Assembly (NCBI RefSeq): GCF_016653405.1
Contig: NZ_NHSN01000011.1
Span: 1 to 44,313 of the forward strand
Direction: 5' to 3'
DNA: 44,313 nt
Source of the DNA: Halorhodospira halophila
GTDB taxonomy: Bacteria; Pseudomonadota; Gammaproteobacteria; Nitrococcales; Halorhodospiraceae
Of this stretch, positions 909 through 24,882 are shown in pieces. Each line of letters opens with the position of its first letter. Position 1 is the stretch's first letter. The notes under the pieces were generated by a model. The model had not been told where the DNA came from, searched no databases, and saw only the letters and a program-made list of their open reading frames with translations. Both the position numbers and the translations under genes were made by a program.

Positions 909-1183
909 CGTTCACCTCCGATGTAGTAGATGATCTGCTCGGGAGCGCGCGAGAGATCCGCCCACACCTGGCGGCGCCCCTCGAGGACCTCCTCGCAGGA
1001 AGGCTCCGGGGATGCCTCTGCGTCATCCCCCTCGGCGCGCTGCTTGTCAGCCGACTCGCTCGCTTCCCCCTCCTCGGCCTTCGGCTTTTCGGACGCCTGT
1101 TCGGGCGAAGACGGCGTGCTGGAACAGCCCGCCATCACGATCAGCCCTGCCAGCAGGGCCCCTGTCGGATGGAACCACCTCAT
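890..1183 (-). CDS. Small putative lipoprotein of the ICE conjugation operon
   Basis: This 97-residue product starts at the ATG that overlaps the previous gene's stop (ATGA). An N-terminal hydrophobic stretch ends in the lipobox-like LIVMAGC, so Cys20 would be lipidated after signal peptidase II cleavage. A low-complexity Glu/Ala/Ser-rich spacer follows, then a short C-terminal part with two cysteines (SCEEVLEGRR and GGERCEPER). I do not recognise the family. T4SS operons of this ICE class usually contain a small lipoprotein, comparable in role to VirB7 or TraV, and position and targeting fit that. The role is inferred. Confidence 0.65.
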   Translation of the reverse strand: MRWFHPTGALLAGLIVMAGCSSTPSSPEQASEKPKAEEGEASESADKQRAEGDDAEASPEPSCEEVLEGRRQVWADLSRAPEQIIYYIGGERCEPER

Positions 1184-2082
1184 GGGCCAGCCTCCTCGAC
1201 TTGCAGCGCATGCAGGGTGCCGTCCTGGTGGCGCAGGACCGCGACCTCGGCCTCTGGATCGACCGAGCTCACCCGCCAACTCGTCTCGCCCACGGCCTCG
1301 CCGGAGCGATAGCGCCCGGTCTCTCCGTCATGGGCCAGGATGACCAGTGCGGACCCGGCCCAATGCTCGAAGCCGAGTAGACGGGCATCCTCGAGCCTCG
1401 GGTTCTCCGGTGCCTCCTCCAGGGTGGTGAGCCGCTCATCCAGCGCGTCGAGCCGGTCCTCGCTGACCCCGGGGATCTGTTGCTCCAGGGCCTCGAGCTC
1501 TGCGGCCAGGTCCCCGGTTTGCTGCTCCAGTTGAGCGACGCGATCGACCGACGGCAGCCCTGTCAGTGCCTCCTCATGCGCAGCCAGGGCCTGCTCGATT
1601 TCCTGCAGCCCGGACTCCTGAGCCTGCTCCAAGGCATCGATTGCCTGTTCCTGCTCCGCCGCCACCTCCTGCAGCTGATTCTCGAGCTCCTGCTCCAGGG
1701 CCTGGACACGCTGCGCAACCTGGGCCAGCTCCGGGGCCGGCGCGGTATCCTCCTCGTCGTCCCCACCGGCGCCGAGCACGGCTCCAAGGACGACGAGCAC
1801 GACGAGAACACCTGCGCCAGGGAGGGCGAAGCGTTTGAGGCGAGCGCCGGTGCCGGTCGCGGCTGCCTGGTGTTCCTGGCCTTCCTCGCTTGCGCCATCA
1901 CCGAAGATGGATGCCTCGAGGTCCGCTCCGTGGTCGGGTTCATCGGGCGAACCAGGATCCGGGGTCTCGACGCTCCTGGGGCCCGCGGATGCCTCGTGCG
2001 GCTCGCCCGCCTGCGCGTCGGTCTGGCGCTCGCCTTCGGAAGTATCGGGGTGTTGCCGCTGGGTTTGCTTTCGCCGGCTCAT
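1180..2082 (-). CDS. Single-pass membrane protein with long coiled coil, ICE conjugation operon
   Basis: The 300-residue protein begins at an ATG overlapping the upstream stop (ATGA). Residues 1-84 are hydrophilic, acidic and presumably cytoplasmic. One transmembrane helix spans about 86-106. A Gln/Glu/Leu-rich coiled coil runs from about 117 to 225, and a compact beta-type domain (about 231-300, with LLGFEHWAGSALVILAHD) closes the protein. That layout is typical of bitopic inner-membrane proteins that reach into the periplasm in secretion or pilus machines, such as PilP/GspC-like or TraB-like scaffolds. I cannot assign a family. Its place between PilL-like and TIGR03749-like genes argues for a T4SS envelope role. 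Confidence 0.7.
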   Translation of the reverse strand: MSRRKQTQRQHPDTSEGERQTDAQAGEPHEASAGPRSVETPDPGSPDEPDHGADLEASIFGDGASEEGQEHQAAATGTGARLKRFALPGAGVLVVLVVLGAVLGAGGDDEEDTAPAPELAQVAQRVQALEQELENQLQEVAAEQEQAIDALEQAQESGLQEIEQALAAHEEALTGLPSVDRVAQLEQQTGDLAAELEALEQQIPGVSEDRLDALDERLTTLEEAPENPRLEDARLLGFEHWAGSALVILAHDGETGRYRSGEAVGETSWRVSSVDPEAEVAVLRHQDGTLHALQVEEAGP

Positions 2083-2759
2083 TGGGTCACCTCGTCAAAC
2101 CACGACTCAGCCTCATCCGGATCGCCGGCCTCGATCTCCTCGGTGTCGGGGATCTCCAGCTTGGCGCCGGCCATCAGCAGATTCGGGTCGCCGCCGATGA
2201 AGGCCTGGGGGTTGGCCTCGTAGAGGGCCTGGCTCGCCACCTTCGGATGCCTTGGCGCGACATGAGCCGCGATCTGGTAGAGGCTGGCGCCGCGGGCAAT
2301 TGGCCCGAGGGTCCCCGGTTCCTCCGGGTCGTCCCGATCGGCCGCGAGCCGCTCCGCATTGGCCTCCGCCCCCTCCCGGTACGGCGGCTTCGGTTCATAG
2401 GTCACCGCGCGCGCGACCGGGTCGGTAAGAAGTCGCCAGGGAGCACCAGCGAGGGTCTTGAGGGCCTCCTGCAAGGGCATAGGCCCGAGCTCCCGGTGGG
2501 CCTCGGGCAGCGGGCGACTGGTCAATACGGACGTTGCCGCCAGCTCCAGGAACTCGTAGCCGCTCGGCTCAAGAAGATGCTCCAGGGCATCCCCGACGGT
2601 CGTCACCTCCTGTGGAAAGACGACCTGGACGCTGGTCTTGAGCGGCTCCAGCTCCGCATCCATAGGATCAGGGTCCAGACTGGAGTAGCGCCCCACCTGT
2701 TCTCCGGCTATGCTCGGCCCAGCGATCGTGAGTAGCGTTGCGAAAAGGACGGCACGCAT
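2079..2759 (-). CDS. pilL: PilL-like ICE protein (TIGR03748) with C-terminal FimV/LysM-type domain
   Basis: The 226-residue product starts at an ATG preceded by a strong Shine-Dalgarno (AGGAGG). A signal peptide occupies about residues 1-18. Residues about 22-140 resemble the conjugative PilL N-terminal family of PFGI-1-class elements: GRYSSLDPDP, VTTVGDALEHLLEPSGYEF, LPEAHRELGPMPLQEAL and a segment ending TLAGAPWRLL. The C-terminal part (about 150-205) looks like the LysM-like core of FimV, with GASLYQIA, ANPQAFIGGDPNLLMAG and AKLEIP, and probably contacts peptidoglycan. It is the first gene of a minus-strand operon with 4-base overlaps to the next genes. Full PilL proteins are usually longer, so this may be a compact variant. 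Confidence 0.75.
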   Translation of the reverse strand: MRAVLFATLLTIAGPSIAGEQVGRYSSLDPDPMDAELEPLKTSVQVVFPQEVTTVGDALEHLLEPSGYEFLELAATSVLTSRPLPEAHRELGPMPLQEALKTLAGAPWRLLTDPVARAVTYEPKPPYREGAEANAERLAADRDDPEEPGTLGPIARGASLYQIAAHVAPRHPKVASQALYEANPQAFIGGDPNLLMAGAKLEIPDTEEIEAGDPDEAESWFDEVTQ

Positions 2760-4441: not shown

Positions 4442-4446
4442 ACCAG

Positions 4447-5319: not shown

Positions 5320-5321
5320 GG

Positions 5322-5785: not shown

Positions 5786-5857
5786 GCCTAACGCCTTCAC
5801 TCAGCCGTCGTCAGCCCGCGTAGCGGGTTGATAGTCGGCTGCAGTGACTTGTTGGGC
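5786..5857 (-). other. attC: attC recombination site (72 bp) of the UDG-like cassette
   Basis: On the minus strand it starts GCCCAAC and ends GTTAGGC, both perfect cores. Inner arms CTGCAGCCGAC and GACGGCTGAGTG pair around a central CCCGC/GCGGG stem. It has the typical look of integron attC sites. The last 18 or so codons of the UDG-like gene run into it. Confidence 0.92.
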
Positions 5858-6592: not shown

Positions 6593-6612
6593 TTGATATT
6601 CACTATTCTCCC

Positions 6613-6619
6613 AGCGCCC
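6613..6619 (-). other. Lone integron core site upstream of the first cassette (possible attI or attC remnant)
   Basis: GTTGGGC on the minus strand, 21 bases before the first cassette's ATG, is where a recombination core is expected. No matching RYYYAAC partner with inverted arms is seen to its right, so it is either the edge of an attI-type site or a broken attC. Confidence 0.35.
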
Positions 6620-7083
6620 AACAGTGGTATCGACAGATTCTGTGTATCCCGATCAGGCGTAATTCTGTATTTCCGGCTGCGCCAAGACGCGCGCAGAGAT
6701 TAATTGAGCGGTTCGGTGCAATAACAATGGGTTGCTCAGCGAAACGGCGGCCTGGGCGGCGGAAATGCTTGCAAGACACCTAGGGGCCCGCGTGGCCGCG
6801 GTTCTGCGTACGGCAGGTCCGAGAGGTACACCCTCGAGGCGTCCCCAAGGGTAGGTGGTGTGGCGAGCTCCACGCGCAGTCGTCCGTTGACATGTTGGCC
6901 AGTGAAGCACCTTACAATGTCGGGCTGCAAGAGCGCGCGCCACCTGGCGCGGAACGCTTAAGCGCGCGGGTTGAAAGACGGAGGGCCGCCAAGTCTCAGC
7001 GGCTCGGCGAATTCTGTGTAAACTCTTGGGGTTGACCCCTTGAGGCGGATCCCTGACCGTTGGCCCCGAGGAGGTATGCAACC
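6620..7083. other. Apparently gene-free stretch between the cassette array and the DUF192 gene
   Basis: Frames here have no recognisable product and none resembles an integron integrase, which would be expected on the plus strand in this position. A 7-bp inverted repeat with a 2-base gap (CGCGCCA/TGGCGCG, 6936-6951) is the only structure I noticed. A good ribosome binding site for the DUF192 gene (GAGGAGGT) closes the region. Confidence 0.4.
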
Positions 7084-11794: not shown

Positions 11795-12769
11795 CTACCA
11801 GTCGGGGTCCGTTTCAAAGCCCGCAGCCGCGAACACATCAACCTCGGCTTGGTAGCTCTTCTGCGACGTATGCTCATCGAGCGTGGTGCGCGGAGCCGCT
11901 CCACCGGACCCTCGGCCACGCTCGATGGCCTCTTTCCAGCGTTCCTCCCGTAGGTAATTGCCTGGGTTGGGGATATAGCCACCGATCCAGCGCCGATCCT
12001 CTAACTGCCTGCATGCGATGTCGCTGAGGATGGCGTCGATCTGCCAGCGCAGCCCGCGCGAGCGGAAGATTTCGTAGGCCTCACGCCGTTTGACCTTCCT
12101 CGGGTAGGCCGTCCAGAACCGCTCAAAGACCTCGCGGTCATTGGCTTTGGGAGCATCGGCGCTGTGCTGGGCGGAGGCCGAGAGCGTCCCAGCAAGGCCA
12201 GCTTCACACACCCCTGCGCCCCCCGACCGAGAGGCCCCCTCGGTGTGTAATGGAGCTTCTCTCCGGACACCGGATACCGGAGGTGTGTTGGCTTGGATCT
12301 GCACCGGGGATGTCGGGTTAGGGTCGGGATGCCTGTCGGGTTGAGACCGCGACTGCCCATCACATGCGAGCCGGGTCTTGTCGGGATCTGTGTCGGGTTC
12401 GCTATGCCGGGTTTGTGTCGGGTTTGTGCCGGGTTTTTCCCGCTCAGACGAGTCCGTATGGGCCAACGGACAGTGGAAGATGAGCCGCTTCCCTTGGGTA
12501 CACTCGACCGTTAACCCCGACCGGTTCAGCCAATCCACCGAGCGCCTTACGGCGGATTTGCTCGGTGTGCCGGTGCCGGTCAGGCCCTGGTGCGGCTCGA
12601 CATGGCAGGCTTCGCGCAGTGATTGCCAGCTGATACGCCGCTGCACACCGACCAGGCCCGTCCGGTAATCCATATACGGTCGGATACCGAGGATGTAGAC
12701 ACGGAGCGCCAAGCTCGGGAGCCCCGCCAACGCCTGGAGTTCCTCCTGGGTCAATTTGATGGCACTCAT
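11795..12769 (-). CDS. Phage O/DnaT-like replication initiation protein of the ICE
   Basis: The 324-residue product starts at the ATG whose A is shared with the preceding stop (TGATG). The N-terminal part (1-110) looks like a winged-helix replication protein: LALRVYILGIRPYMDYRTG, VQRRISWQSLREA and SAVRRSVDWLNRSGLTVEC. A Pro/Ser/Asp-rich linker of about 100 residues follows. The C-terminal module has FERFWTAYPRKVKRREAYEI and WIGGYIPNPGNYLREERW, typical of phage O-like and helicase-interacting replication proteins. It is encoded directly before the DnaC-like loader, an order known from lambda O/P-type modules. Role in ICE replication is inferred. Confidence 0.8.
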   Translation of the reverse strand: MSAIKLTQEELQALAGLPSLALRVYILGIRPYMDYRTGLVGVQRRISWQSLREACHVEPHQGLTGTGTPSKSAVRRSVDWLNRSGLTVECTQGKRLIFHCPLAHTDSSEREKPGTNPTQTRHSEPDTDPDKTRLACDGQSRSQPDRHPDPNPTSPVQIQANTPPVSGVRREAPLHTEGASRSGGAGVCEAGLAGTLSASAQHSADAPKANDREVFERFWTAYPRKVKRREAYEIFRSRGLRWQIDAILSDIACRQLEDRRWIGGYIPNPGNYLREERWKEAIERGRGSGGAAPRTTLDEHTSQKSYQAEVDVFAAAGFETDPDW

Positions 12770-13323
12770 CAGTGCCCTCCCTCGACCGCCGGTTCGGCCC
12801 GCCCCCTTGAGGCGTAGTCCCGCTGGATGGCTTCGGCTTCCTGTACGAGCTGCCACACAGCCTGCGCAGGAACGCGGCACTTCTGGGCAACTCGCAGATA
12901 CCGCTTCGCATCGGGTAGGCCGTGGTGCTGTTGCCAGGACTGCCAGACGACGTCGGCCCGTTCCGGCTGCAGACGGGGTGGGCGCCCCTGGTGCCGAGAC
13001 ACCCCCAGCGTCCGGCGACGACGGGCCACCTCCGCAGGTGTCATCCCGAAAAGCGCTTCCATCATCGCCCCGTGGGCATGGTGGCGGATCAGTTCATCGG
13101 CAAGTTCGTCCTCCTCGGCACGACGACGAGCGCGCTCGATAGCCGCCGCCAGACGCTCGGGATGAACGTGGATATCGAGAAAGTACCGAGCTTGTGACAG
13201 CAGGTAGAGATACTCCCGGAAGGTCAATTTCTCGATCTGCTGCACGCTGCCTTGTTCCTGCTTGCACTCGAGGGCATGCAGAATCGCCTCGTGTGCGAGC
13301 TTGGTCGGGCTCATTGTCCTCAT
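12769..13323 (-). CDS. DUF2857-type ICE protein
   Basis: The ATG at 13323 overlaps the parB stop (ATGA), giving 184 residues. Conserved-looking parts are TFREYLYLLSQARYFLDIHV in the N-terminal half, ELIRHHAHGAMMEALFGMTP, and an HTH-like AEVARRRRTLGVSRHQGRP. The C-terminal half contains VWQSWQQHHGLPDAKRYLRV. This resembles the DUF2857 family that follows parB in PFGI-1/SPI-7-class ICEs. Its function is unknown; the HTH-like part suggests a regulatory or flagellar-FlhC-like DNA-binding role. Confidence 0.7.
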   Translation of the reverse strand: MRTMSPTKLAHEAILHALECKQEQGSVQQIEKLTFREYLYLLSQARYFLDIHVHPERLAAAIERARRRAEEDELADELIRHHAHGAMMEALFGMTPAEVARRRRTLGVSRHQGRPPRLQPERADVVWQSWQQHHGLPDAKRYLRVAQKCRVPAQAVWQLVQEAEAIQRDYASRGRAEPAVEGGH

Positions 13324-14912
13324 GGCTCGCCCTCCCATAGGTTCATGTTGCGTTCGAGTGCGGCGTTGCGTAGTTGACGGCAGAGCCGTAACAGCTGGAT
13401 GAAGTCCTGAATATCGGTCTCGGGTACCGATGGGTTCGACCAGAAGTCCATGGCGATTTGGACGTAGCCTGGTGAACCCATGCGACTGCGGACAGTGCCG
13501 GGGCTGCTGTTGACGATTTGCGGTAGGTCGTAATGACCAGGTAGATGCGCTCTCCGGGCATCGGTGGCCAACGCTTCGGAGAAAGCAAGTAGGGTCCACC
13601 AGATCCACTTCCGAGCGGGGTGCTGGGAGCCGGCGTCAGGGGCCTCCGGCAACTCAACCAGGTAGCCGACCCCGTGATCCCAGGAGTGCACGCATCGATC
13701 GAGTTCGTAACGCCTCGCGATACTGTGTGCCAGCCGATAGATGTGCTCGCGCAGATCAGGAACGGACTCGCCCTCTACGACCTCATCATCGGAGGTCGTC
13801 TCTGGGCGGAACTCAGGCTCCGGACTGTTCAGAGCTGGTTCCGGTTCGAACGGGGCGGACTCCTCCAGGTCCCCTTCGTCTTCTGCAGCGACCGGGGTGC
13901 ATGCTGCGGCTGTCTTATCGTCAGGCGCCGTGTTTTCCGACTCCATGGCACCTGACCGAACCATTCCTTCCGGCGCATCATCGTGATCAGCATCCAATAC
14001 GGAGGTGGACTGATCCTCCATACGATCGATGCGTCCCGGCAGCGGATGGCCGCTCAAAACGGTGTCCAGTTCATAACGCACAGCGCGCTGGTCGATTCCC
14101 AGCGCCTCCGCCATCCGGGCTACCAGTTCATCTCGACCTTCCTCCGGATCCCAGTCGGGAGCGTCGGTATGGGCGAGCGCCTGCTCCCAGAGAATGTCGA
14201 AATCCTCCGCATCCCGCTGGTAATGACTCCAGACTTCCTGTGCCGCAGCGTAGATCTTCCTGATGTGGTCGAGCGTTTTTGCGCCAAGGCTGTTCAGCGC
14301 CTCCGGGATCGCAGCCAGTAGGTGCTGCGCCGCGAACTCATACCGGAGCAGGTGACGCTTGCTGATCGTGTATCCGAGCCCGTGAAGCCGAGCAATGAAT
14401 GCATTGCGGCTGAGCTTCTCGCCCGACTCCGCCTCTAGGTGGCCCCGGAGGTGTTCCAGGGCAAGGGCCTTATCAATCAAGGCGAGCTCGCCTCGGAGCT
14501 CGTTCTCGACCAGGTGGCTGGTCAGAACCGTAGTCTCACCCTGCCAAGGGTGGTAAAGGCAGTGGACCCGCGCGAAGGCTTCATCCCCGGTCTCCGCAAA
14601 AAGTTCGCGGAGAATGCGCAGGCGGGTATTGCCGCCGGCGCAGATCGTGTAGTGCTCGTCGCCAGGGCGACGGGTCACATCCAGGCTGTTATTGAGCCCC
14701 CGCTGCGCCGCAATCGACTGCTTGATCTCTTCATAGCGGGGGTTCTCCAAACGGCGTGGGTTGTCCTGGTACTCGAGGATCTGCTCGATCGATAGCACCA
14801 GCTGGGTCACGGTAACCGGGTCACCCGGCTGATCCAGGCTGTGCTCCCGGGTACCGTAGTGCCCTTGCCACAGGCCCTGTCGGACCTTTTCAGTCAAACC
14901 GCGTTTTGCCAT
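13320..14912 (-). CDS. parB: ParB-family partition protein of the ICE (TIGR03764-like)
   Basis: A 530-residue protein starting at MAKRGLTEKVRQGLW; the frame extends upstream but only this ATG is sensible. The ParB/Srx domain (about 40-160) includes LEYQDNPRRLENPRYEEIKQ, CAGGNTRLRILREL and HLVENELRGEL. An HTH-type region (about 175-215) with NAFIARLHGLGYTISKRHL comes next. A long acidic linker (about 320-400) and a helical C-terminal domain (YVQIAMDFWSNPSVPETD) follow. The size and layout match the large ParB proteins of PFGI-1-class ICEs. It lies 37 bases downstream of parA and should assist stable inheritance of the excised element. Confidence 0.88.
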   Translation of the reverse strand: MAKRGLTEKVRQGLWQGHYGTREHSLDQPGDPVTVTQLVLSIEQILEYQDNPRRLENPRYEEIKQSIAAQRGLNNSLDVTRRPGDEHYTICAGGNTRLRILRELFAETGDEAFARVHCLYHPWQGETTVLTSHLVENELRGELALIDKALALEHLRGHLEAESGEKLSRNAFIARLHGLGYTISKRHLLRYEFAAQHLLAAIPEALNSLGAKTLDHIRKIYAAAQEVWSHYQRDAEDFDILWEQALAHTDAPDWDPEEGRDELVARMAEALGIDQRAVRYELDTVLSGHPLPGRIDRMEDQSTSVLDADHDDAPEGMVRSGAMESENTAPDDKTAAACTPVAAEDEGDLEESAPFEPEPALNSPEPEFRPETTSDDEVVEGESVPDLREHIYRLAHSIARRYELDRCVHSWDHGVGYLVELPEAPDAGSQHPARKWIWWTLLAFSEALATDARRAHLPGHYDLPQIVNSSPGTVRSRMGSPGYVQIAMDFWSNPSVPETDIQDFIQLLRLCRQLRNAALERNMNLWEGEP

Positions 14913-14949: not shown

Positions 14950-15771
14950 CTAGACGTCCTCGAGGTGCGGGAAAAGCTCTCGAGTGAGAGCCCGCATGGT
15001 CTCGAGCGCTGCGGGGGTCGGCCCGTCGCGCCTGGGCTCCCATTGGTGCACCGGGATCTGCCGGGTAGCCGCCTCTCGGTAGGCCACGGTCGCCGGCACC
15101 GTGGTTTCGAGGATGGTGATCTGCCCCTTGCTGGGCTCGTAGGTCTCGCGGCGCAGCTCTTGGGCAATGGCCCGGGCATCCGCTGTACGATCCATCCGAT
15201 ATAGCAGGCCGCGCAGCGGAGCGATGGGTGCACCAAGCGCCGCCATGGGCTTGAGGCGGTCGATCATCCCGAGCGTCCCACGAGCGAACTCGCGCGCAGA
15301 GAGAATCTCCGGTGGTATCGGCGAGAGGAGCATATCCGCCGACAGGACGGCGGCGTCCTGGAGTGGACCGACGGCCCCTTGGGTGTCGATCAGCACCACG
15401 TCATAGATATCGTCGTACTCACTCAGGATGTGCCGGAGACGAACCCGGCCATCGGGGGTGTGCAGGATCCAGTTCTGAAGAGCACCATCCGGATCATCAC
15501 TAAGAACCAGATCGAGCAACCCGCCGCCATCACTATCGATCTTCGTGGTGCTGACAGTACTGCCGGTCTCACCCTCGGTGATGAGCGCCGTCAGGCCTCG
15601 GGAAGAGGGTGGGTCATGGATCGGGAAATAGCTGGACAGGGTTGGTTGGATGTCTGCATCGACGAGCAGCACACGCTGACCGCGGTCGGCCAGATAGGCA
15701 CCAAGGTTCGCGGTAACGGTGGTCTTTCCGACGCCGCCCTTGGTGGAACAGACACAGAGTTTGATTGCCAT
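14950..15771 (-). CDS. parA: ParA/Soj-type partition ATPase at the ICE end
   Basis: The 273-residue P-loop ATPase has the deviant Walker A KGGVGKTTVTANLGAYL (11-27), VLLVDADIQPTL (switch) and DVVLIDTQGA (Walker B). In pKLC102/PAPI-1-type elements the soj gene next to the attachment site is needed to keep the excised circle. It leads a minus-strand operon running away from the tRNA-derived end. A perfect palindrome covers its Shine-Dalgarno (see 15777-15808), which may limit translation or bind a regulator. Confidence 0.93.
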   Translation of the reverse strand: MAIKLCVCSTKGGVGKTTVTANLGAYLADRGQRVLLVDADIQPTLSSYFPIHDPPSSRGLTALITEGETGSTVSTTKIDSDGGGLLDLVLSDDPDGALQNWILHTPDGRVRLRHILSEYDDIYDVVLIDTQGAVGPLQDAAVLSADMLLSPIPPEILSAREFARGTLGMIDRLKPMAALGAPIAPLRGLLYRMDRTADARAIAQELRRETYEPSKGQITILETTVPATVAYREAATRQIPVHQWEPRRDGPTPAALETMRALTRELFPHLEDV

Positions 15772-15776
15772 GTTGC

Positions 15777-15808
15777 CTCCCCTCCGCTTGTATCAAGCCG
15801 GAGGGGAG
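15777..15808 (-). promoter_or_regulatory. Palindrome over the parA ribosome binding site
   Basis: CTCCCCTCCG (15777-15786) and CGGAGGGGAG (15799-15808) are perfect complements, and the loop can extend the stem with CTTG/CAAG. On the parA mRNA the GGAGGGGAGG strand is the Shine-Dalgarno, five bases before the ATG. It could be an mRNA hairpin that hides the start, or an operator or parS-like site for the ICE partition proteins. Confidence 0.6.
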
Positions 15809-15875
15809 ATGTATTCGCAGTTTACGAGATGGCCCAAGTGTTGTTGGCAAGCCGTTAGTCAACGGGCCATTCCGG

Positions 15876-15921
15876 ACTCTTAATCAGTAGGTTCAAGGTT
15901 CGAGTCCTTGGCGGCCCACCA
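15876..15921 (+). other. ICE attachment site: 3' half of a tRNA-Lys(CTT) gene
   Basis: The sequence reads from the anticodon loop (CTCTTAA, anticodon CTT) through a well-formed T arm (CAAGG, loop TTCGAGT, CCTTG) to acceptor strand GCGGCCC and ACCA. To its left the expected 5' half is degenerate: the anticodon stem fails to pair, and there is no proper D arm or GGGCCGC acceptor strand. This is what an attR copy left by integration into tRNA-Lys should look like. The intact gene should lie at the other ICE end. Confidence 0.8.
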
Positions 15922-16403
15922 GCTTCGCTACCGTTGGCAACCCTACGTATGCCAAGGTAGATACCGAGCCAGGGGCGAGCCCGCTTGACTCCCCGTTGGC
16001 GGGCTCCGAAGAGCCGGTGGTGCCACACCGGCTCTTCTCCCACTTCCTTGTGACCCCTGGGCGAGCAGCATTTGCAACGTTCGAACCGCTTCGAGGTCCG
16101 AACTGCGTCTCCGCTCAAGTCGCCTAGATACACCTCCCCGTTTCACTTGCTGCAGCACACCCCGGATGCGCCGCAGCCGTCTTCGTTTCCCATCACCGCA
16201 TGACTACGCGTTCCAGTCACTCCCCAAGCGTCTCTTACTAATTCCGCCGTTGCCCCCTCCTCTCCTGCCCGACTCCCCGCGGGTCCGGGCAAGACCATCT
16301 ACCAAACCGTGCCGCAGCGCTCCGCCTCTAGCCGCTATCCGGCTTAGGAGGCGTTGATCAGTGGAGGTACGGCCTGCTGATCCATGCTGCCCGCCTCGGC
16401 GAG
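15922..16403. other. Gene-free flank between the attachment site and dgkA
   Basis: No supported gene. Two hairpins lie close to the tRNA remnant (15977-16037, described separately). The rest, including several short Arg/Pro-rich frames, has no recognisable product, Shine-Dalgarno or family motif. Confidence 0.5.
15977..16037 (+). terminator. Two adjacent hairpins downstream of the tRNA-Lys remnant
   Basis: The first has stem GAGCCCGC/GCGGGCTC (15977-15984 with 15999-16006). The second has a perfect 12-bp stem GAAGAGCCGGTG/CACCGGCTCTTC (16008-16019 with 16026-16037) and a six-base loop. No long T run follows. They probably served as the 3' end signal of the original tRNA-Lys transcript. Confidence 0.4.
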
Positions 16404-16784
16404 TCAACCTAGCAACACCAGCAGCCAAAGAACCACGGCATTGACGATCGCCATGAACACCGCTGCCGACCCCAGATCCTTGGCGCGCTCGGCCAGCGAA
16501 TCCCAGTGCTCGCCGGCGCGGTCGACAGCGGCTTCGATACCGGAGTTAAGCAGTTCCGCCACCAGGATCAGCAGAAGACTGCCGACCAGGATCGCGCGCT
16601 CGGCACCGTCCGCCCCTAGCATCAGGGCCAGCAGGCCGAGGGGCGGAATCACGACCATCTCCTCCCGGAACGCAGGCTCCTGACGCCAGGCGGCCTGCAA
16701 CCCCCGCCAAGAGTTACGCAGGGCGCGCGCCATGCGCGGCACCCCGTGACGGCGGGATCGGCTCTGCTCGTCGCGCGGCATCAC
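16404..16784 (-). CDS. dgkA: Diacylglycerol kinase
   Basis: An inner-membrane enzyme that phosphorylates diacylglycerol to phosphatidic acid, recycling lipid from membrane-derived glucan synthesis. The 126-residue protein contains ALRNSWRGLQAAWRQEPAFR and the family signature ELLNSGIEAAVDR. Three hydrophobic helices follow the usual plan. The first ATG gives a 17-residue basic extension before MARALRNSW; the second start would match the usual length better. It lies alone at the chromosomal side of the ICE junction. Confidence 0.9.
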   Translation of the reverse strand: MMPRDEQSRSRRHGVPRMARALRNSWRGLQAAWRQEPAFREEMVVIPPLGLLALMLGADGAERAILVGSLLLILVAELLNSGIEAAVDRAGEHWDSLAERAKDLGSAAVFMAIVNAVVLWLLVLLG

Positions 16785-17047
16785 TCAGGCACTCGTAGTT
16801 GGGAGAGCATCCCAGCATGATGCCGCAAAGAAACCGCCCGCGGCAAAGTGCCGCACGATGTGTTGGTTTTCGGGGCTTCGACTATATTCAATCCGCATGC
16901 CGTCATGTCCCGGCATTGCGCAATCCAACAACCATGGCAGGAAACGAACGTGAAAGGACTTCGGCTTTTTGGTGGTTCCACCCTCAGCCTTTTGATCGCT
17001 GCCTCTCCCTCCCTCGCGGGCGCCGCCTCCTTCTCGGGACCGTATCT

Positions 17048-18966
17048 CCCAAGTTAAACAGGTAACGGCCGGTTGAGCCCGGGTACTAGCGGCGGCTCTC
17101 TTTGCGCGTCAGAGACTTATTGCGCGCCACACCGTGAGAGGCTGTAGTGCCAAACATCATTCGCAAGGGTTTGCCTGGCCAGCGGAAAAAGCGGCATAAT
17201 GTGAAGCCATGTTTATCCGCAGGTCGCGCTCCAACGGTCGAGAGTACCTTCGCCTGGTGGAAAGCTACCGGGATGAGCAAGGACGTACCCGCCACCGACA
17301 GGTCGCCCAGCTCGGCCGCGCGGATCAGCCGGCGACCCAAGAGAAGATCGAAGGCCTGATCCAGAGCCTTCAGCGCCACGCCGGCATGGAGGGCGTAGAC
17401 GCTGATGGCGTGCGTTTTGACCCGGCCCGTTCGCTCGGCCCGGCGTGGCTGCTGACCGAACTCTGGCAGGAGCTGGGTTTCGATCGCGCCCTACGCCGCG
17501 CGTTCCGGTCCTCGTACCGCGAGTTCGACCTGGAGGCGGTTGTTCGGCTGCTAGTCTTCAACCGGCTCTGCGACCCGAGCAGCAAACTTGGCGTGCTGCG
17601 CTGGCTCGAGCGCGTGCATCTGCCTGGAGTCGACACCCGAGACCTCCACTACGCCCAGCTGCTGCGCGCCATGGACGCGCTGATCGAGCACCGCGAGGCC
17701 GTCGAGAAGGCGAGTGCCGGGCTTCTCAAGCCGTTACTCGACCAGGAGCTGAGCGTTGTGTTCTACGACATCACCACCGTCCGGATCCACGGTGAGAAGG
17801 AGCTTGGCGACGATCTGCGTCAGTATGGTCATAGCAAGGACGTCGCCGGTACTGCCCGGCAGTTCGCTCTCGGCGTTGTGCAGACGGCTGATGGGCTGCC
17901 GATCGCCCACGAGGTCTTCGAGGGTAATGTCGCCGAGGCAAAGACCCTGGCGCCGATGCTCCGTCGGCTGCTCAAGCGTTACCAGCTCCAGCGAGTGGTC
18001 GTTGTCGCTGACCGGGGCCTGCTGAGCCTGGATAACGTCGACACCCTCGAGGCGCTGGCTGCCGATGAGGGTCTGGCCATCGACTACATCCTTGCCGTTC
18101 CGGGGCGGCGCTATGCCGAGTTCACCGATGTTATGGCCGAGCTGCATCCGCGGCTTGCCGACGCCGCCGAGCAGTCCGGGAAGGAATCGGTCACCGAGAC
18201 CACCTGGCAAGGCCGCCGGTTGGTCGTGGCGCATAATCCGGAGCGCGCACGGGAGCAGACGCGGGCGCGGCGGCGCAAGATCGAGCGCATCGAACAGATC
18301 GGCGAGGCCTTGGCCCAGCGGCTCGATAACCAGGATGCCGGCCGCCCAGGCCGCGGGCGCCGCTCAACGGATCGCAGCGCCCATCGGCGCTTTCACCAGA
18401 CCGTGCTGCGCCACCAGATGAGCAGTATCGTCAAGGCGGACCTCGGTGCCGAACAGTTCCGTTACGACATCGACGACGAAGCGTGGACAGCCGCCGAACG
18501 CCTCGACGGCAAGCTGCTGCTGGTCACTAGCCTGGAGGCGTGGGACGCGCAGGCGATCGTTGAACGTTATCGCTCCCTAGCTGATATCGAGCGCGGATTC
18601 CGGGCACTGAAGAGCACCCTGGATATTGCCCCGGTCTACCACCGGTTGCCCGAGCGTATCCGCGCCCATGCGCTGATCTGTTTCCTCGCCCTGGTCCTCT
18701 ACCGGGTGCTGCGCATGCGCCTGAAGGCCAAGGACTCCGCCTTCAGCGTCGAGCGCGCCCTGGAGGCGCTGGAGACCGTGCAAAGGCACGCGGTCGAGAT
18801 CAACGGAGAAGCCCACACCGGGGTCTCGATCTCCCCAGAGCAGCGACAGCTCTTCCAGGAACTGGAGGTGAAGCCGCCGAGCCAAGCGAACGTCAGCGCG
18901 TAGTGCCAAATTTTAAGTGCGCTCCCGGCGCATCAATGAGTTATACGCGCGGCTGTTTAAGTTGGG
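17048..18966 (+). mobile_element. IS1634-family insertion sequence (1,919 bp)
   Basis: The left end reads CCCAAGTTAAACAG and the reverse complement of the right end reads CCCAACTTAAACAG, an inverted repeat with one mismatch in 14. GTATCT stands directly outside both ends (17042-17047 and 18967-18972), a 6-bp target duplication consistent with the family. The transposase fills most of the element. The intact ends and exact duplication argue that insertion is recent. Confidence 0.92.
17209..18903 (+). CDS. IS1634-family DDE transposase
   Basis: The 564-residue protein is full length. Catalytic acidic residues can be placed in VVFYDITTV (first Asp), VVVADRGLLS (second Asp) and ERYRSLADIERGFRALKS (Glu in a Y-R-E-K-like signature). 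The start MFIRRSRSNGREYLRLVESY is typical of the family. It is on the same strand as the split porin gene. No frameshift or stop is visible, so the element may be active. Confidence 0.93.
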   Translation: MFIRRSRSNGREYLRLVESYRDEQGRTRHRQVAQLGRADQPATQEKIEGLIQSLQRHAGMEGVDADGVRFDPARSLGPAWLLTELWQELGFDRALRRAFRSSYREFDLEAVVRLLVFNRLCDPSSKLGVLRWLERVHLPGVDTRDLHYAQLLRAMDALIEHREAVEKASAGLLKPLLDQELSVVFYDITTVRIHGEKELGDDLRQYGHSKDVAGTARQFALGVVQTADGLPIAHEVFEGNVAEAKTLAPMLRRLLKRYQLQRVVVVADRGLLSLDNVDTLEALAADEGLAIDYILAVPGRRYAEFTDVMAELHPRLADAAEQSGKESVTETTWQGRRLVVAHNPERAREQTRARRRKIERIEQIGEALAQRLDNQDAGRPGRGRRSTDRSAHRRFHQTVLRHQMSSIVKADLGAEQFRYDIDDEAWTAAERLDGKLLLVTSLEAWDAQAIVERYRSLADIERGFRALKSTLDIAPVYHRLPERIRAHALICFLALVLYRVLRMRLKAKDSAFSVERALEALETVQRHAVEINGEAHTGVSISPEQRQLFQELEVKPPSQANVSA

Positions 18967-19825
18967 GTATCTGGCCCTTGGCGCGGGTGTGCTGACCTCG
19001 CAGACCTACGAGACCAAGCTGCGCGATACCAATGGTGATAGATACGACACCACCTATGGGCAGGAAGACTGGGCCTCGAGGTTCGATATTGTCTTCGGCT
19101 TCGGAGAGCGCATCGGTGACCTTTACCTGGCCACGGAGTTCAATTACACCGTCGGCAACCTGGATGGCGATATCATCTCTGCGCGAAATAACCAGGGGGA
19201 TCGCGCCGAGTTGAGCGTCGACGCCGGCGACGGTCTCGGCGTCTCCGTGCGGGTGGGGCGGATGTTCACGGATACCACCCTCGGTTACGCCAAAGTCACC
19301 TACCAACAGCGTGAGCTTGAGTTTACTGGGAATTACCGCCTCAACAACTCTAGCGGACACGAATCAGAGGACGAGGACTTCGCCGGATTCGGCGTGGGGC
19401 TCGGTTTCGAGTATGTCCCACCGGACAGCCCGCTCGGCATCCGCGCCGAGGCCATGCGTATCGATTTCGGCGATGAGACCTTCTCCGATGACTTCAAGGT
19501 CGACCTGGTCGAGCACAGCTTCAATCTCTTCGCCTCCTACCATTTCTGACCGTTTGCCCCTCCACCAAAGCCCTGGATCCGGCAGCAAGCGGTTCACTTC
19601 GCTTGCTGCCGGGTCGCTACGCCCCAATCCGGCACGCTTGGATCAGACGCCTTCACCCATCCTGAACACGCACGGCTTCATCGGCCCGTCCAGCCATGAG
19701 CATCATCGGGTGGGATTGGCCCCACCACCCCGCCATCCGGCATCATGACCGGAGCCGGTGGCGGCGGTATGCGCACGCACCGGCACCGACCGAGCACTCA
19801 CAGGTTCAGGGAGCGGATCGGACCC

Positions 19826-20824
19826 ATGCACTGCATCCAGATGACCGCTGTTGGCGACCCGGACGTATTGCAACCCGCGCAGGTGCCGACCCCGGAGCCG
19901 GGTCCCGGGCAGGTGCGCGTGCGCCTGGCCGCCGCCGGCATCAACCCGGTCGACGCCAAGGTCCGGGCCAACGGCCTCTTCAACCCCGATGCACAACCAC
20001 CGGCGATCCTCGGCTGCGACGGCGCCGGGACCATCGACGCCGTGGGCCCCGGCGTGGAACAGCTCGCCCCCGGTCAGCGGGTGCTGTTCATGAACGGCGG
20101 GATCGGCCTGGAGCCGGGCAATTACGCGGAGTACACGGTACTCGACGCACGCTTCGTCACCCCCACCCCCGACGCCGTCGATGACGTCCACGCCGCAGCC
20201 ATGCCGCTGGTCGCGCTCACCGCCTGGGAGGCCTTATTCGACCGGGTCGCTCTGCAGAAGGGCGAGCGCGTGCTGATCCACGCCGGCGCCGGCGGCGTAG
20301 GCCATGTGGCCATCCAACTCGCCCGGCAGGCGGGCGCCCGGGTCATCACCACCGTCAGCGATCCGGCCAAGGCGGAGATCGTCCGCGAACTGGGCGCCGA
20401 GGCGGTGATCCATTACCGGGATGACGACTTCGTCGACGCAGTGGAACACTGGACCGCCGGCGAGGGCGTGGACGTAGTGCTCGACACCGTAGGCGGCGAG
20501 GTCTGCACCCGGTCGCTCCACGCCCTCGCCACCTACGGCCGGCTCGTCACCATCCTCGCCCTGCCCGAGGACCTGGACCTGCACCATGCGCGCGTGCACA
20601 ACCTCACGCTGGTCCAGGAGCTGATGCTCAGCCCCATGGTTCTGGGCCGGGACGATCTGCGCATCCACCAGACCGGGATCCTGGCCGAGTGCGCCCAGCG
20701 CATGGCGGCGGGGTCACTGCAGGTGCGTGTTCAGGAGACGTTCCCAATGGCCGAGGCAGCCGCGGCTCATCGGCGGCTCGAGGCCGGCGGCCTGACCGGC
20801 AAGCTGGTGCTGACGCTGCCCTGA
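19826..20824 (+). CDS. Zinc-independent quinone oxidoreductase (medium-chain dehydrogenase family)
   Basis: The 332-residue enzyme begins at MHCIQMTAVGDPDVLQPAQV; the frame opens earlier but an AGGGAG site precedes this ATG. The GroES-like half (1-125) includes VRVRLAAAGINPVDAKVR and LGCDGAGTIDAVGPGV. The NADPH-binding half has GERVLIHAGAGGVGHVAIQLA (Rossmann AxxGxxG) and DVVLDTVGGEV. The catalytic and structural zinc ligands of alcohol dehydrogenases are missing, as in quinone oxidoreductases (QOR/zeta-crystallin). It may reduce quinones or enones in the cytosol. No operon partner is certain, although a DUF429 gene follows 25 bases later. Confidence 0.88.
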   Translation: MHCIQMTAVGDPDVLQPAQVPTPEPGPGQVRVRLAAAGINPVDAKVRANGLFNPDAQPPAILGCDGAGTIDAVGPGVEQLAPGQRVLFMNGGIGLEPGNYAEYTVLDARFVTPTPDAVDDVHAAAMPLVALTAWEALFDRVALQKGERVLIHAGAGGVGHVAIQLARQAGARVITTVSDPAKAEIVRELGAEAVIHYRDDDFVDAVEHWTAGEGVDVVLDTVGGEVCTRSLHALATYGRLVTILALPEDLDLHHARVHNLTLVQELMLSPMVLGRDDLRIHQTGILAECAQRMAAGSLQVRVQETFPMAEAAAAHRRLEAGGLTGKLVLTLP

Positions 20825-20849
20825 TGCTCCGCAGGAGGACCACCGTCCG

Positions 20850-21680
20850 ATGAGGCACGACCAGCCAGCGCAGCGGCCCCTGACCGTCCTCGGCGTGGAC
20901 TGCGCCGTCCAGTCCAAGCAAGTGGGGCTGGCCCTCGGGCACTGGGATGGCCGCGGGCTTCGAGTCGAGCGGGTTGCGCTGGGTTCCGCCTCGCGCAGTG
21001 CGGCTCAGATCGCACTGGAGTGGCTCGCCGACCACACCCACGCGCCGCTGCTCGCCCTCGATGCGCCCCTCGGGTGGCCGCAGCCACTCGGTCAGCAGCT
21101 GGCGCAGCACCGGGCTGGCGACGCGCTGGGCGCCGACGCCAGCGAACTCTTCAATCGGGTGACGGACCGCTTCGTCCACCGGCAAATCGGCAAGAAACCC
21201 CTGGATGTCGGTGCCGACCGCATCGCGCGGACCGCCCACGCCGCCCTGGCGTTCGTCGACAAACTCAGATGCGAGCGCGGCTGGACCCTGCCAATGCGCT
21301 GGAGCCCCGGCGAGCTGCAGCAAGGCGACGCCGCTGCCGGCGGCCTCATCGAGGTCTACCCCGCCGCCACCCTGCAGGCCCACGCTATACCCGCCAAAGG
21401 CTACAAGGGTCGTGATACCGAGGGCAAAACGGCCCGTGAACGCATCGCCTGCGCCATGGCTCAGATGCTGGGTGGGTCGTTCGAGATCCCGGAACTGGCC
21501 ACCCGCTCCGACGGCCTGGATGCCGTGCTCTGCCTGCTCGCAGCTCGGGACTTCCTCCTCGGCGAGGCGATGCCCCCGGCCGAGATCGACGAATCCCTCA
21601 ATCGGGAAGGGTGGATCTGGGTGCGCACGCCGCCCCCTGGGAACGACCGACGTACGTCTGCGCCGCCCACCACCCCTTGA
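20850..21680 (+). CDS. DUF429 family protein
   Basis: The 276-residue product shows the DUF429 pattern. It has an RNase H-like opening (TVLGVDCAVQSKQVGLALG), LLALDAPLGWPQPLG, FNRVTDRFVHRQIGKKPLDV and ADRIARTAHAAL. A late segment, IEVYPAATLQAHAI, precedes ATRSDGLDAVLCLLAARDFL. These acidic positions suggest a predicted nuclease-like fold, but no function is established. The start ATG lies 25 bases after the oxidoreductase stop, so co-transcription is likely. Its end overlaps the -35 element of the hsp20 promoter. Confidence 0.85.
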   Translation: MRHDQPAQRPLTVLGVDCAVQSKQVGLALGHWDGRGLRVERVALGSASRSAAQIALEWLADHTHAPLLALDAPLGWPQPLGQQLAQHRAGDALGADASELFNRVTDRFVHRQIGKKPLDVGADRIARTAHAALAFVDKLRCERGWTLPMRWSPGELQQGDAAAGGLIEVYPAATLQAHAIPAKGYKGRDTEGKTARERIACAMAQMLGGSFEIPELATRSDGLDAVLCLLAARDFLLGEAMPPAEIDESLNREGWIWVRTPPPGNDRRTSAPPTTP

Positions 21681-21704
21681 AAGGTCGTGCCGAACGACCT
21701 ATAT
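21676..21704 (+). promoter_or_regulatory. Sigma-32-type heat-shock promoter of hsp20, with palindrome in the spacer
   Basis: CTTGAAA (21676-21682) and ACCTATAT (21697-21704) with a 14-base spacer fit the heat-shock consensus (CTTGAAA / CCCCATnT). A perfect 7-bp inverted repeat, AGGTCGT/ACGACCT with a 5-base loop (21682-21700), occupies the spacer and could bind a regulator. The 5' untranslated part is about 85 bases. Confidence 0.65.
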
Positions 21705-21796
21705 CGCGGGGTGGGCGAGGAGCGATCGAACGAAAGCGACAGCCAAGGCAAGCAGGTTCGGGCAAACGGGTCGTCGGAACAAAAGGAGGTGAGACT

Positions 21797-22315
21797 ATGG
21801 TGGCACGTCGCAACCTCTTCCCGGTGGCCAACTCGGATCTGCACAACCGCGCCGCGAACCGGGATCTGGCGGCACGCGACCCCTTCACGGCGCTGCAGTC
21901 TGAGATGATGCGTTTCTTCGACGACCTGCGCCGCGGGGTCGAGGATCCGCTCGCCCAGATCGGCCCGGACATGACAGCGCCGCGGATCGACGTCCAGGAA
22001 GACAGCAGCAACCTGTACGTTGTCGCGGAGCTGCCCGGCATGACGGAGAACGACGTCGAGCTGACGTACAACGATGGCGTCCTCCGCATTGCCGGCGAGA
22101 AGCGGGTCGAGCACACGGACTCGGGCGAGTCAGACCGGCAGGTCCACGTCACGGAGCGTTCCTACGGGCGTTTTGAGCGGCAGATCCCGCTGAGTCGCGC
22201 CATCAACGAGGAACAGATCAACGCCTCGTTCCGGGATGGCGTGCTGACGATCACACTGCCCAAGGCCGAGGAGGGTCAGCAGGGTCGCCGCATCGAGGTC
22301 CAGAGGGCCGCCTAG
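21797..22315 (+). CDS. Hsp20/alpha-crystallin small heat-shock protein
   Basis: The ATG at 21797 follows a near-perfect AAGGAGGTGAG site. The 172-residue protein has an N-terminal arm (1-60) with ALQSEMMRFFDDLRRGVEDP. Its alpha-crystallin domain (about 63-158) holds RIDVQEDSSNLYVVAELPGM, DVELTYNDGVLRIAGEKR, RSYGRFERQIPLSRAI and ASFRDGVLTITLPKAE. A short tail ends RRIEVQRAA, which contains an I-x-V anchor. It holds unfolding proteins as an ATP-independent chaperone. A sigma-32-like promoter and a terminator make it a single-gene unit. Confidence 0.95.
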   Translation: MVARRNLFPVANSDLHNRAANRDLAARDPFTALQSEMMRFFDDLRRGVEDPLAQIGPDMTAPRIDVQEDSSNLYVVAELPGMTENDVELTYNDGVLRIAGEKRVEHTDSGESDRQVHVTERSYGRFERQIPLSRAINEEQINASFRDGVLTITLPKAEEGQQGRRIEVQRAA

Positions 22316-22354
22316 GGCCCGCGCCCTCCTCCTCGCCCGAGTCCCGCACCACGC

Positions 22355-22388
22355 ACGGGCGCCTCCGCGGCGCCCGTTTCTTTTTCGC
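22355..22388 (+). terminator. Rho-independent terminator of hsp20
   Basis: Stem ACGGGCGCC/GGCGCCCGT (22355-22363 with 22369-22377) with a 5-base loop, followed by a T-rich run (TTTCTTTTT). It separates hsp20 from the convergent radA gene. Confidence 0.88.
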
Positions 22389-22438
22389 CCGGGGCCGTCG
22401 GTGCGCGCAGCCGAAAAGCCCCCGCGCGGCGCCCCTCC

Positions 22439-23788
22439 TCAGCCCATCAGGGCGGTGATCGCCTCCTCCAGACGGCGCACCGGGTGGAGTTCCATGCCCG
22501 CCACCCCGTGGCGGGGGGCATTCTTGGCCGGCACCACCGCCCGCGTGAAACCGTGCTTGGCCGCCTCGGCCAGGCGCTCCTCGCCACCGGGGACGGGGCG
22601 CACCTCGCCGGCCAGACCGAGTTCCCCGAAGACCACCGAGTCCCGCGGCAGGGGCCGATTGCGCAGGCTCGAGAGCACCGCCGCCAGCGCCGGCAGGTCG
22701 CCCGCCGTCTCCTGGACACGCACGCCGCCGACCACGTTCAGGAAGACATCCTCGCCGGCGGTGCTGATCCCGCCGTGGCGCTGGAGAACCGCCAGCAGCA
22801 GCGCCAGGCGGCTGCCGTCCAGGCCCACGGCCACGCGGCGCGGCTGACTCCCGGCGGAGTCGGCCACCAGCGCCTGCACCTCAAGCAGCAGGGGCCGACT
22901 CCCCTCCCGGGTCACCAGCACCGCGCTGCCCGGCACATCCTGATCGTGACGGGAGAGGAAGATGGAGGAGGGATTGCGCACCTGGCGCAGGCCGTCCTCG
23001 GCCATGGCAAAGACGCCGAGCTCGTTGGCGGCGCCGAAGCGGTTCTTCACCGCCCGCACCACGCGGTAGCGGCTGCCCTGATCGCTCTCGAAGTAGAGCA
23101 CGGTGTCTACCATGTGCTCGAGCACTCGCGGCCCGGCCAGGTGCCCCTCCTTGGTGACGTGGCCGACCAGGATCACCGCCATGCCGGTGGTCTTGGCCAG
23201 ACGCACCAGCTGCGCCGCGCTCTCGCGGACCTGGGAGACCGACCCCGGCGCCGAGCCAAGCGCCGCAGTGTGGAAGGTCTGCACCGAGTCGAGCACCAGG
23301 GCCCGGGGGCGGATCCGCTCCGCTGCCGCGACGACCTCCTCGACCGCCGTCTCGGCCATCAGCTTCATGGCGTCATCCGCCACGCCCAGGCGCTGCCCCC
23401 GCAGCGCCACCTGCTGGAGCGACTCCTCACCGGTGGCGTAGAGCGCCGGGTGCTCGCGGGAGAGGGCCGCCAGCGTCTGCAGCAGCAGGGTCGATTTACC
23501 GATCCCCGGCTCGCCGCCGATGAGCACCACCGACCCGGGCACCAGACCGCCGCCGAGGACTCGGTCCAGCTCAGCCACGCCGGTGGCCAGCCGCGGCTCC
23601 GGCGCGGTCGATACCTCGGCCAGCGTGGTGATCTCCGTGCCCCGGCCCACCCGGCCACCGCCGGATGCGGCCGGCTGTGCGATCTCCTCGAGCGTATTCC
23701 AGGCGCCACACTCCGGACACTGACCCGCCCATTGCGGTTGCTCCGCGCCACAGTCCGAGCAGAGAAAACGCCGGCGGCTGCGGGCCAT
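22439..23788 (-). CDS. radA: DNA repair ATPase RadA (Sms)
   Basis: RadA drives branch migration in recombination. The 449-residue protein has an N-terminal C4 zinc finger (C10, C13, C24, C27), RecA-like ATPase with Walker A GGEPGIGKST (91-100), and the RadA motif KNRFG (248-252). A Lon-like C-terminal domain (about 290-449) contains FLNVVGGVRVQETAGDL and RDSVVFGELGLAGEVRPV. Its ATG shares a base with the alr stop (TGATG), so it is the last gene of the rpsF-rpsR-DUF2232-rplI-dnaB-alr-radA group. Confidence 0.97.
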   Translation of the reverse strand: MARSRRRFLCSDCGAEQPQWAGQCPECGAWNTLEEIAQPAASGGGRVGRGTEITTLAEVSTAPEPRLATGVAELDRVLGGGLVPGSVVLIGGEPGIGKSTLLLQTLAALSREHPALYATGEESLQQVALRGQRLGVADDAMKLMAETAVEEVVAAAERIRPRALVLDSVQTFHTAALGSAPGSVSQVRESAAQLVRLAKTTGMAVILVGHVTKEGHLAGPRVLEHMVDTVLYFESDQGSRYRVVRAVKNRFGAANELGVFAMAEDGLRQVRNPSSIFLSRHDQDVPGSAVLVTREGSRPLLLEVQALVADSAGSQPRRVAVGLDGSRLALLLAVLQRHGGISTAGEDVFLNVVGGVRVQETAGDLPALAAVLSSLRNRPLPRDSVVFGELGLAGEVRPVPGGEERLAEAAKHGFTRAVVPAKNAPRHGVAGMELHPVRRLEEAITALMG

Positions 23789-24882
23789 CAGGACGCCCCC
23801 GTATCCACCGGCTCGCGCCGAACCCGGGGCGGCATCCGGCAGAAGAGCTCGTAGGCAATGGTGCCGCAGGCGTCGGCCACCTCCTCGGCGCGCACCGCGC
23901 CGCCCCAGAGGATCGCGGGATCCCCCTCGGTCACCCCTTCGAGGCCACGCAGGTCCACCGCCAGCAGGTCCATGGAGATCCGCCCCACCAGCTGCGTCCG
24001 CCGCCCGGCCACCTCCACCGGCGTGCCGCTCGGCGCATGGCGCGGATACCCGTCGCCATAGCCCACGGAGATAACCCCCACCGGCATGCTCTCAGGACAG
24101 CACCAGGTCGCGCCGTAGCCGACCGCGTCACCAGCCTGCAGATGCCGCACCGCCACCACCTGACCGCGAAACGCCATGGCCGGTTGCAGCGCGGGCTGAT
24201 CTGCCCGGCCATCCACGAAAGGCGATGCGCCGTAGAGCATGATCCCCGGACGCACCCAGTCGTAGTGGCTTGCCGGCCAACCCAGCACACCGGCCGAATT
24301 GGCCGCCGAGCGTGGCCCCGGTAGACCTTCACAGGCGGCTTCAAAGGTGGCCAGCTGCCGCTCGGTGGCCAGGTTGCCCCGATCATCGGCACACGCCAAG
24401 TGGGTCAGGAAGCCGACGTCGGCCCGCACGCCCGGGGCCTCGGTCAGACGGCGCCAGACCGCCTGGACCTCCTCCGGCGGGAAGCCGAGCCGGTGCATAC
24501 CGCTGTCGACCTTCACCCAAACCGTCACCGGCGAGGCCAGCCGAGCCTGCGCCAGCGCCTCCACCTGCCAATGGGTGTGAATGACCAGCTCAAGATCCGC
24601 AGCCGCCGCCCGCTCCAGATCCTCGACCCGGAAAGGTCCTTGGAGGAGGACGATACGCTCGCGGAACCCGGCCCCGCGCAGCGCTTCGGCCTCCGTGGCG
24701 TCGGTGACGGCCAACGCCTCCGCGTGCCCGCTCAACGCCCGGGCCACATGGGTCAGGCCGTGGCCGTAACCATCGGACTTGATCACGGCCATGACCCGCC
24801 GCCCGGGAGCTGCTTGGCGCGCAACCCGGAGATTGGCCTGCAGGGCACTCAGATCCACCGTGGCCCGCGCTGCCCGGCTCAC
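23788..24882 (-). CDS. alr: Alanine racemase
   Basis: A PLP enzyme converting L-alanine to D-alanine for peptidoglycan. The 364-residue protein has the cofactor lysine in VMAVIKSDGYGHG (Lys35; SDG replaces the more common ANA) and the catalytic tyrosine region VGYGATWCCPE with SVGYGDGYPRH after it. VDSGMHRLGF and a C-terminal beta domain with QLVGRISMDLLAVDL complete the fold. It overlaps dnaB by four bases (ATGA). Confidence 0.97.
   Translation of the reverse strand: MSRAARATVDLSALQANLRVARQAAPGRRVMAVIKSDGYGHGLTHVARALSGHAEALAVTDATEAEALRGAGFRERIVLLQGPFRVEDLERAAAADLELVIHTHWQVEALAQARLASPVTVWVKVDSGMHRLGFPPEEVQAVWRRLTEAPGVRADVGFLTHLACADDRGNLATERQLATFEAACEGLPGPRSAANSAGVLGWPASHYDWVRPGIMLYGASPFVDGRADQPALQPAMAFRGQVVAVRHLQAGDAVGYGATWCCPESMPVGVISVGYGDGYPRHAPSGTPVEVAGRRTQLVGRISMDLLAVDLRGLEGVTEGDPAILWGGAVRAEEVADACGTIAYELFCRMPPRVRREPVDTGAS

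Follow-up and report, generated by a model that had tools for sequence, protein, structure and literature searches.

PFGI-1 of Pseudomonas fluorescens Pf-5 is described as a 115-kb element with DnaB and a pil operon, bounded by a 49-bp repeat that includes 45 bp of tRNA-Lys, with the integrase 335 bp away (PMC2647930). For PAPI-1-like ICEs, a tRNA-Lys site and a 48-bp repeat are reported, with the parA operon at one end and TraI-Int at the other (PMC6945700). Tandem ICEclc-type elements, two of one kind side by side, are described in P. aeruginosa (PMC10732049), and ICEclc has oriT1 and oriT2 (PMC6561031).

The window analysed here, a stretch of 44,313 nucleotides, is the entire contig C11 of a Halorhodospira halophila genome (G000; 2.86 Mb in 45 contigs). 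It holds an ordinary ICE boundary of a known class. From sequence comparison, window positions 15875-15921 are very probably the attR of a PFGI-1-class ICE, and the flank beyond them is most likely the relic of a second ICE in tandem.

15875..15921, plus strand: attR core of the ICE, the 3′ 47 bases of tRNA-Lys(CTT), an exact match to the intact gene on contig C10
15875..15932, plus strand: 58-bp exact direct repeat shared with C10 (37767-37824), containing the 47-base core
14950..15771, minus strand: parA (Pfam AAA_31/CbiA, ParA family), its start 103 bp from the repeat
15772..15874, no strand assigned: parA-side arm of the element, with no tRNA 5′ half (Rfam score and random-stretch test)

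The core extends from the anticodon stem and loop to the CCA of the tRNA. An 18-base core probe gave one exact match in the window and one with 3 mismatches, where 0.06 would be expected by chance. When the own genome was searched with a 63-base probe, two of the 5 matches listed were strong, one in the window and one on C10 (49 of 49 bases). The C10 copy belongs to an intact tRNA-Lys(CTT) gene at 37738-37813, the last of a Pro-Arg-His-Lys tRNA cluster, and joining the C10 and C11 flanks in sequence gives a single intact tRNA-Lys. The final 11 bp of the 58-bp repeat, past the core, are shared probably because both flanks are left ends of ICEs.

A tyrosine recombinase with an open frame of 332 aa is read toward the tRNA on C10, and its stop codon lies 319 bp from the intact gene. 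The first-pass annotation, which had been made from the window alone, was right that a tRNA-Lys 3′ half abuts a parA-led operon. The integrase and the intact tRNA-Lys of identical 3′ sequence that it forecast, to be sought by a genome search for a tyrosine recombinase beside tRNA-Lys(CTT), were found on a separate contig. Its placement of the element in the pKLC102/PAPI-1/PFGI-1 family agrees with the NCBIfam PFGI-1 models, the published anatomy of PFGI-1 and the gene order of plasmid pUM505. The same annotation had described a degenerate 5′ half of the tRNA on the parA side, and this part did not hold. ARAGORN calls a tRNA-Lys at 15849-15921, and likewise at the joined circle junction. The Rfam tRNA model gives 18.1 bits there, against a gathering score of 29 bits, and when 5000 random 40-base segments were drawn from the element, 333 resembled the true tRNA 5′ half as well as or better than 15835-15874 does. 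A decayed 5′ half at the junction was therefore rejected, the similarity being within chance, and we take the 5′ side of the junction to be the element's own sequence. This arm is alike in a sibling ICE of another genome (G007) and largely different in G006.

Two observations concern other surroundings of this tRNA gene. The genes clpX and agcS lie on the opposite side of the C10 tRNA-Lys cluster and on the opposite strand when compared with G001 (both genes) and G008 (clpX); this comparison, which covered C10 from 20000 to 37813, suggests a possible rearrangement breakpoint near the tRNA-Lys/ICE site. In G003 (C69, 3748-3800), there is a further partial tRNA-Lys copy with unrelated neighbouring sequence, which may represent a different element using the same tRNA.

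On the window side, a parA-led operon with a ParB of the class stands at the att end opposite the integrase end. Leftward from the repeat, parA is followed by these genes, with other genes between the ATPase gene and PilL2:

13320..14912, minus strand: parB of PFGI-1-class ICEs (TIGR03764, 244 bits, cut-off 143.75)
12769..13332, minus strand: DUF2857 protein (PF11198)
11795..12880, minus strand: conserved parA-operon protein, unnamed, in no Pfam or NCBIfam family, with relatives in G006 and on contig C44
11013..11786, minus strand: DnaC/IstB-like ATPase of the helicase-loader type (domain match)
2079..2759, minus strand: PilL2 of the PFGI-1 class (TIGR03748)
1180..2082, minus strand: conserved ORF adjoining the TIGR03749 gene, with a homologue 95.7% identical on contig C36
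3..908, minus strand: TIGR03749 integrating conjugative element protein (NCBIfam match), cut by the contig end

The matches to TIGR03749, TIGR03748 and TIGR03764 in the window all exceed the NCBIfam cut-offs. So do the matches on C10 to TIGR03760 and TIGR03761: behind the integrase are a MobH/TraI_2 relaxase (TIGR03760, NF041494), a PH-domain protein, a PFL_4669 protein (TIGR03761), ssb and the start of topB, within which the contig ends. The ICE occupies 7.0 kb of C10 and 15.9 kb of C11, and its middle, where its transfer genes would lie, falls in an assembly gap. Its two ends are on separate contigs, and we infer that they belong to one element. In the low-G+C cargo of the window (2760-7000, G+C 0.54), a ThsB-like TIR protein (PF08937, PADLOC ThsB) directly adjoins a protein with two SLATT effector domains (SLATT_3 and SLATT_1), both lying within 4447-5729 on the minus strand; the two may constitute a defence pair resembling Thoeris, in which the effector would be a membrane protein. 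With this locus, the phototrophic halophile genus Halorhodospira gains a PFGI-1-class ICE of which both ends are seen. Literature searches, read at the level of titles and abstracts, gave no earlier description of an ICE in this genus, and the main text of the SL1 genome paper (PMC3746430) does not contain the words 'integrase', 'conjugative' or 'genomic island'.

This arrangement suggests the following course of events. The tyrosine recombinase would insert the ICE into the 3′ half of tRNA-Lys(CTT), so that the integrase end would rebuild the tRNA and the parA end would keep a 47-base duplicate. If the two copies recombined, the ICE would come out as a circle, with traI-int reading toward att and parA, and an intact tRNA-Lys would remain at the site. 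The circle would be held by ParA/ParB and transferred by MobH and a type IV secretion system. Beyond attR would lie about 400 bp of the integrase-side end of a second ICE, a tandem neighbour later deleted down to its att side, a structured block and a scrap of its integrase. The att copies, the gene order at each end, the relic and the double layout of G006 described below are read directly from the DNA, whereas excision, transfer and the order of events are deduced from them.

The transfer step of this course depends on genes that are only partly placed. The genome has two ParBs of the class (C11 and C44), two relaxases of the class (C10 and C44) and two matches to TraC (TIGR03744), which have equal scores and lie only on C36 and C44. 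When C10, C36, C44 and C11 were compared for end overlaps, no clean chain was found. C36 and C44 share 8,634 identical bases (100%), and a 95% copy of window 1-2437 is present on each; either the elements exchanged the identical stretch recently, or the identity is an artefact of the assembly. C44 represents a second element, which lacks an integrase at the usual position and has parA and traI as neighbours. It may be circular and plasmid-like, because its contig ends carry two parts of a pilL gene. One of these ends also has sequence resembling the transposase of the window, which we take to be IS1634-like.

It is therefore conceivable, although rather unlikely, that the element is an ICE by descent that is no longer self-transmissible, being either integrated and immobile or only mobilisable. 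The TraC genes on C36 and C44 could not be placed in the tRNA-Lys ICE. No TraC was found in G007, the genome with the sibling ICE and a draft that is 93% complete, or in G006, whose counterpart element has only fragments of an integrase and in which the TIGR03760 relaxase was not found either. On the other hand, the integrase frame in G000 is open over 332 aa, both the relaxase and PilL score above their cut-offs, and TraC occurs twice in the genome. The integrase of the sibling ICE in G007 is 98% identical, which points to recent movement.

For the flank beyond attR, the first-pass annotation had called this place the right end of an ICE. That holds for the att site, while it overlooked that the DNA beyond is most likely another ICE end, in relic form.

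15933..16318, no strand assigned: probable relic of a second, related ICE, from its integrase side (DNA similarity to C10)
16247..16318, minus strand: integrase gene scrap, 3′ end (DNA match; protein trace weak)

The flank matches the integrase-side end on C10 at 85.0% over 447 columns with the repeat included (E 3e-121), or 83.5% over 406 columns from CCACCA on, and the similarity extends about 400 bp beyond the repeat, to about 16318. Over its last 72 bases, the DNA match to the 3′ end of the integrase gene beats all of 1000 dinucleotide shuffles; at the protein level, the scrap is short and weak (E 0.04). A far end of this second ICE or a third tRNA copy was not found in the own genome, which has two strong tRNA-Lys copies only.

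Comparison with other genomes supports a separate origin of this flank. The sibling ICE in G007 has an integrase 98% and a parA 99% identical to those here, and its end (G007:C57) is identical over window 15841-15921 but differs after CCACCA. Because the sibling has a different right flank, the flank in the window is not part of the ICE. In G007, the intact tRNA-Lys lies on contig C4 with no integrase next to it. In G006, presumably H. halophila SL1, the layout is double: a left end carrying part of an integrase lies behind the intact tRNA-Lys (690405), and a second left end, also with a piece of integrase, lies 31 kb on behind a 3′ tRNA copy (721363), which itself stands behind a parA 95% identical to that of the window. 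These two left ends are direct copies, 98.1% identical over 523 bp. The G006 element looks decayed, because TraC and the relaxase of the class were not found there.

Left ends are closer within a genome (82.9% in G000 and 98.6% in G006) than between G000 and G006 (63-66%). Such a pattern would be given by conversion or lineage-specific duplication, so that the two similar ends might have arisen within one ICE, for example by homologous recombination between ICE copies, with no second insertion. We consider this improbable. Independent tandem insertions of each lineage's own ICE yield the same pattern of identities, and in both genomes the second copy is placed exactly behind the 3′ tRNA copy, as site-specific insertion predicts. 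In our reading of the identities, each lineage underwent its own tandem insertions. Insertion at this site seems to have happened more than once, because the flank looks like the leftover end of an older element. With the present ICE, the relic behind it, the double layout in G006 and the sibling ICE in G007, one tRNA-Lys has apparently been occupied repeatedly.

Similar stubs were seen in three other genomes. In G001 (C74), a stretch resembling an ICE left end (69-73% over 67-100 bp) lies right behind tRNA-Lys, without an integrase. In G004 (C93), a stub begins at CCACCA at the start of the contig (97.5% over 121 bp), and the tRNA is absent from the contig. A stub in G007 (C4) is doubtful, as it was seen with the tRNA in one comparison and was absent in another. 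These stubs may be footprints of lost ICEs.

Within the relic there is a block with predicted secondary structure.

15965..16068, plus strand: block of about 100 bp with an outer stem and two hairpins, inside the relic (covariance model, 116 bits)

The outer stem is CCAGGGG/CCCCTGG. All 8 aligned copies preserve the second hairpin. Pairing in the first hairpin fails at four cells of the alignment close to the loop, and in some copies the base of the outer stem does not pair. Of 28 predicted pairs, 3 change on both sides. The case for the block is thus carried by conservation and not by covariation, because the covariation energy term is only -0.12. A covariance model was built from the 8 copies, including those of the window relic, C10, C44 and G016, and on these four of its own members it scored 116, 116, 91 and 82 bits, respectively. 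Outside the training set, it scored 74 bits in G004, 70 bits in G002 (C19) and 25-29 bits at four Thioalkalivibrio loci. In G016, the block lies between a tRNA-Thr and an integrase 49% identical to that here, with a relaxase gene behind. In Thioalkalivibrio, at the same place beside tRNA-Thr(CGT), a T run comes after the second hairpin. On C44 and G002:C19, where no integrase separates parA from traI, the block stands 100 and 93 bp upstream of parA, respectively.

A DNA search detected the block in 6 genomes out of 54 from the order; G002 was missed there, although the model finds it. By the model with strict filters, it was found among 369 genomes of the class in the own genome only. A model search of 21 sources gave nothing up to E 1 in the stretches of G001 (C74) and G007:C4 or in three plasmid stretches. 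Among viral contigs, one pattern gave 10 loci, none showing the second hairpin on visual inspection of the flanks, and the sole tblastn match was to DnaB. As a known RNA the block was rejected, with 28.4 bits for 6C RNA against a gathering score of 47, and 17.7 for PhotoRC-I against 45. In window 15700-16400, a search for sigma-70-like promoters and T-run terminators gave none of either.

The persistence of the block where the integrase is absent suggests a role in the circle, in whose predicted form it would lie between traI-int and parA. We propose tentatively that it may be a working part of the circular element, as a candidate oriT, parS or insulating RNA element/terminator. If so, the rebuilt tRNA-Lys would receive ready-made stem-loops with each integration, and this would favour the survival of dead ICE stubs behind tRNA genes. 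The block is a testable candidate cis site (oriT or parS) for MobH-type ICEs of this group.

That the block is borne by ICEs also argues against the least probable reading of the flank, in which 15933-16318 would be native DNA downstream of tRNA-Lys and the ICE left end a captured copy of it, with one ICE and no relic: the weak similarity behind tRNA-Lys in G001, where an integrase search found nothing, and the start of G004:C93 at CCACCA are in its favour, but no such similarity was found behind tRNA-Lys in G008, G002, G003 and G009 or past the tRNA in G010, the block is part of an ICE left end at a different tRNA, the tRNA-Thr of G016, and of the two elements without an integrase there, the flank similarity runs into integrase codons, and the sibling ICE has another right flank. 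The flank is thus best read as the relic of a second ICE.

Past the relic, further accessory DNA was found.

16404..16784: dgkA, past the relic
17209..18903: DDE transposase, past the relic

Among 9 genomes of the genus, dgkA was found in the own genome; the other 8 had no good match, one of them giving a poor match with stops. Homology to the G006 flank resumes patchily from about 19.3 kb and firmly from about 19.7 kb. The G+C content is 0.59-0.65 over 15876-19700 and 0.70 beyond. An island edge set at the direct repeat would fall at 15.9 kb, while the accessory DNA seems to reach about 19.3-19.7 kb.

Among the known systems compared, the integrases of the Thioalkalivibrio and G016 loci at tRNA-Thr(CGT) are 47-49% identical to the integrase here and have the tRNA about 275-320 bp from the integrase 3′ end. 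Their target is tRNA-Thr and not tRNA-Lys as here, and the block is better matched in G016 (82 bits) than in Thioalkalivibrio (25-29 bits). Plasmid pUM505, which belongs to the PAPI-1/pKLC102 family, has the order mobH-int-[apparent tRNA-Lys(TTT) 3′ half]-parA, which is the order predicted for the excised circle of the ICE here. ARAGORN calls no tRNA in that stretch, as expected of a tRNA half, and Lys(TTT) is our own reading. The best ungapped match of pUM505 to the window core is 24 of 33 bases, the integrase here is 28% identical to that of pUM505, and the model search did not find the block in the pUM505 stretch. In the ICEclc-type tandem there are two elements, while only a stub of some 400 bp represents the second element in the window.

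A close likeness is to PFGI-1 itself. PFGI-1 has a DnaB-type helicase near parA, whereas a scan of the operon proteins here gave the DnaC/IstB-like ATPase; we did not count the DnaB feature as defining the class. PFGI-1 has a pil operon (pilLNOPQRSTUVM in the pKLC102/PAPI-1/PFGI-1 subgroup), of which only PilL2 was seen here, as any other pil genes would fall in the assembly gap, and the host here is a purple sulfur bacterium. Both elements use a tRNA-Lys site, with a repeat of 49 bp including 45 bp of tRNA in PFGI-1 and of 58 bp including 47 bp here, and with an integrase at 335 bp and 319 bp, respectively. Both have relaxase, parA/parB, ssb and topoisomerase genes, and the NCBIfam models named after PFGI-1 match the proteins here. 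The boundary layout of the ICE here is also the same as that of PAPI-1, ICEPae1161 and pKLC102 of P. aeruginosa.
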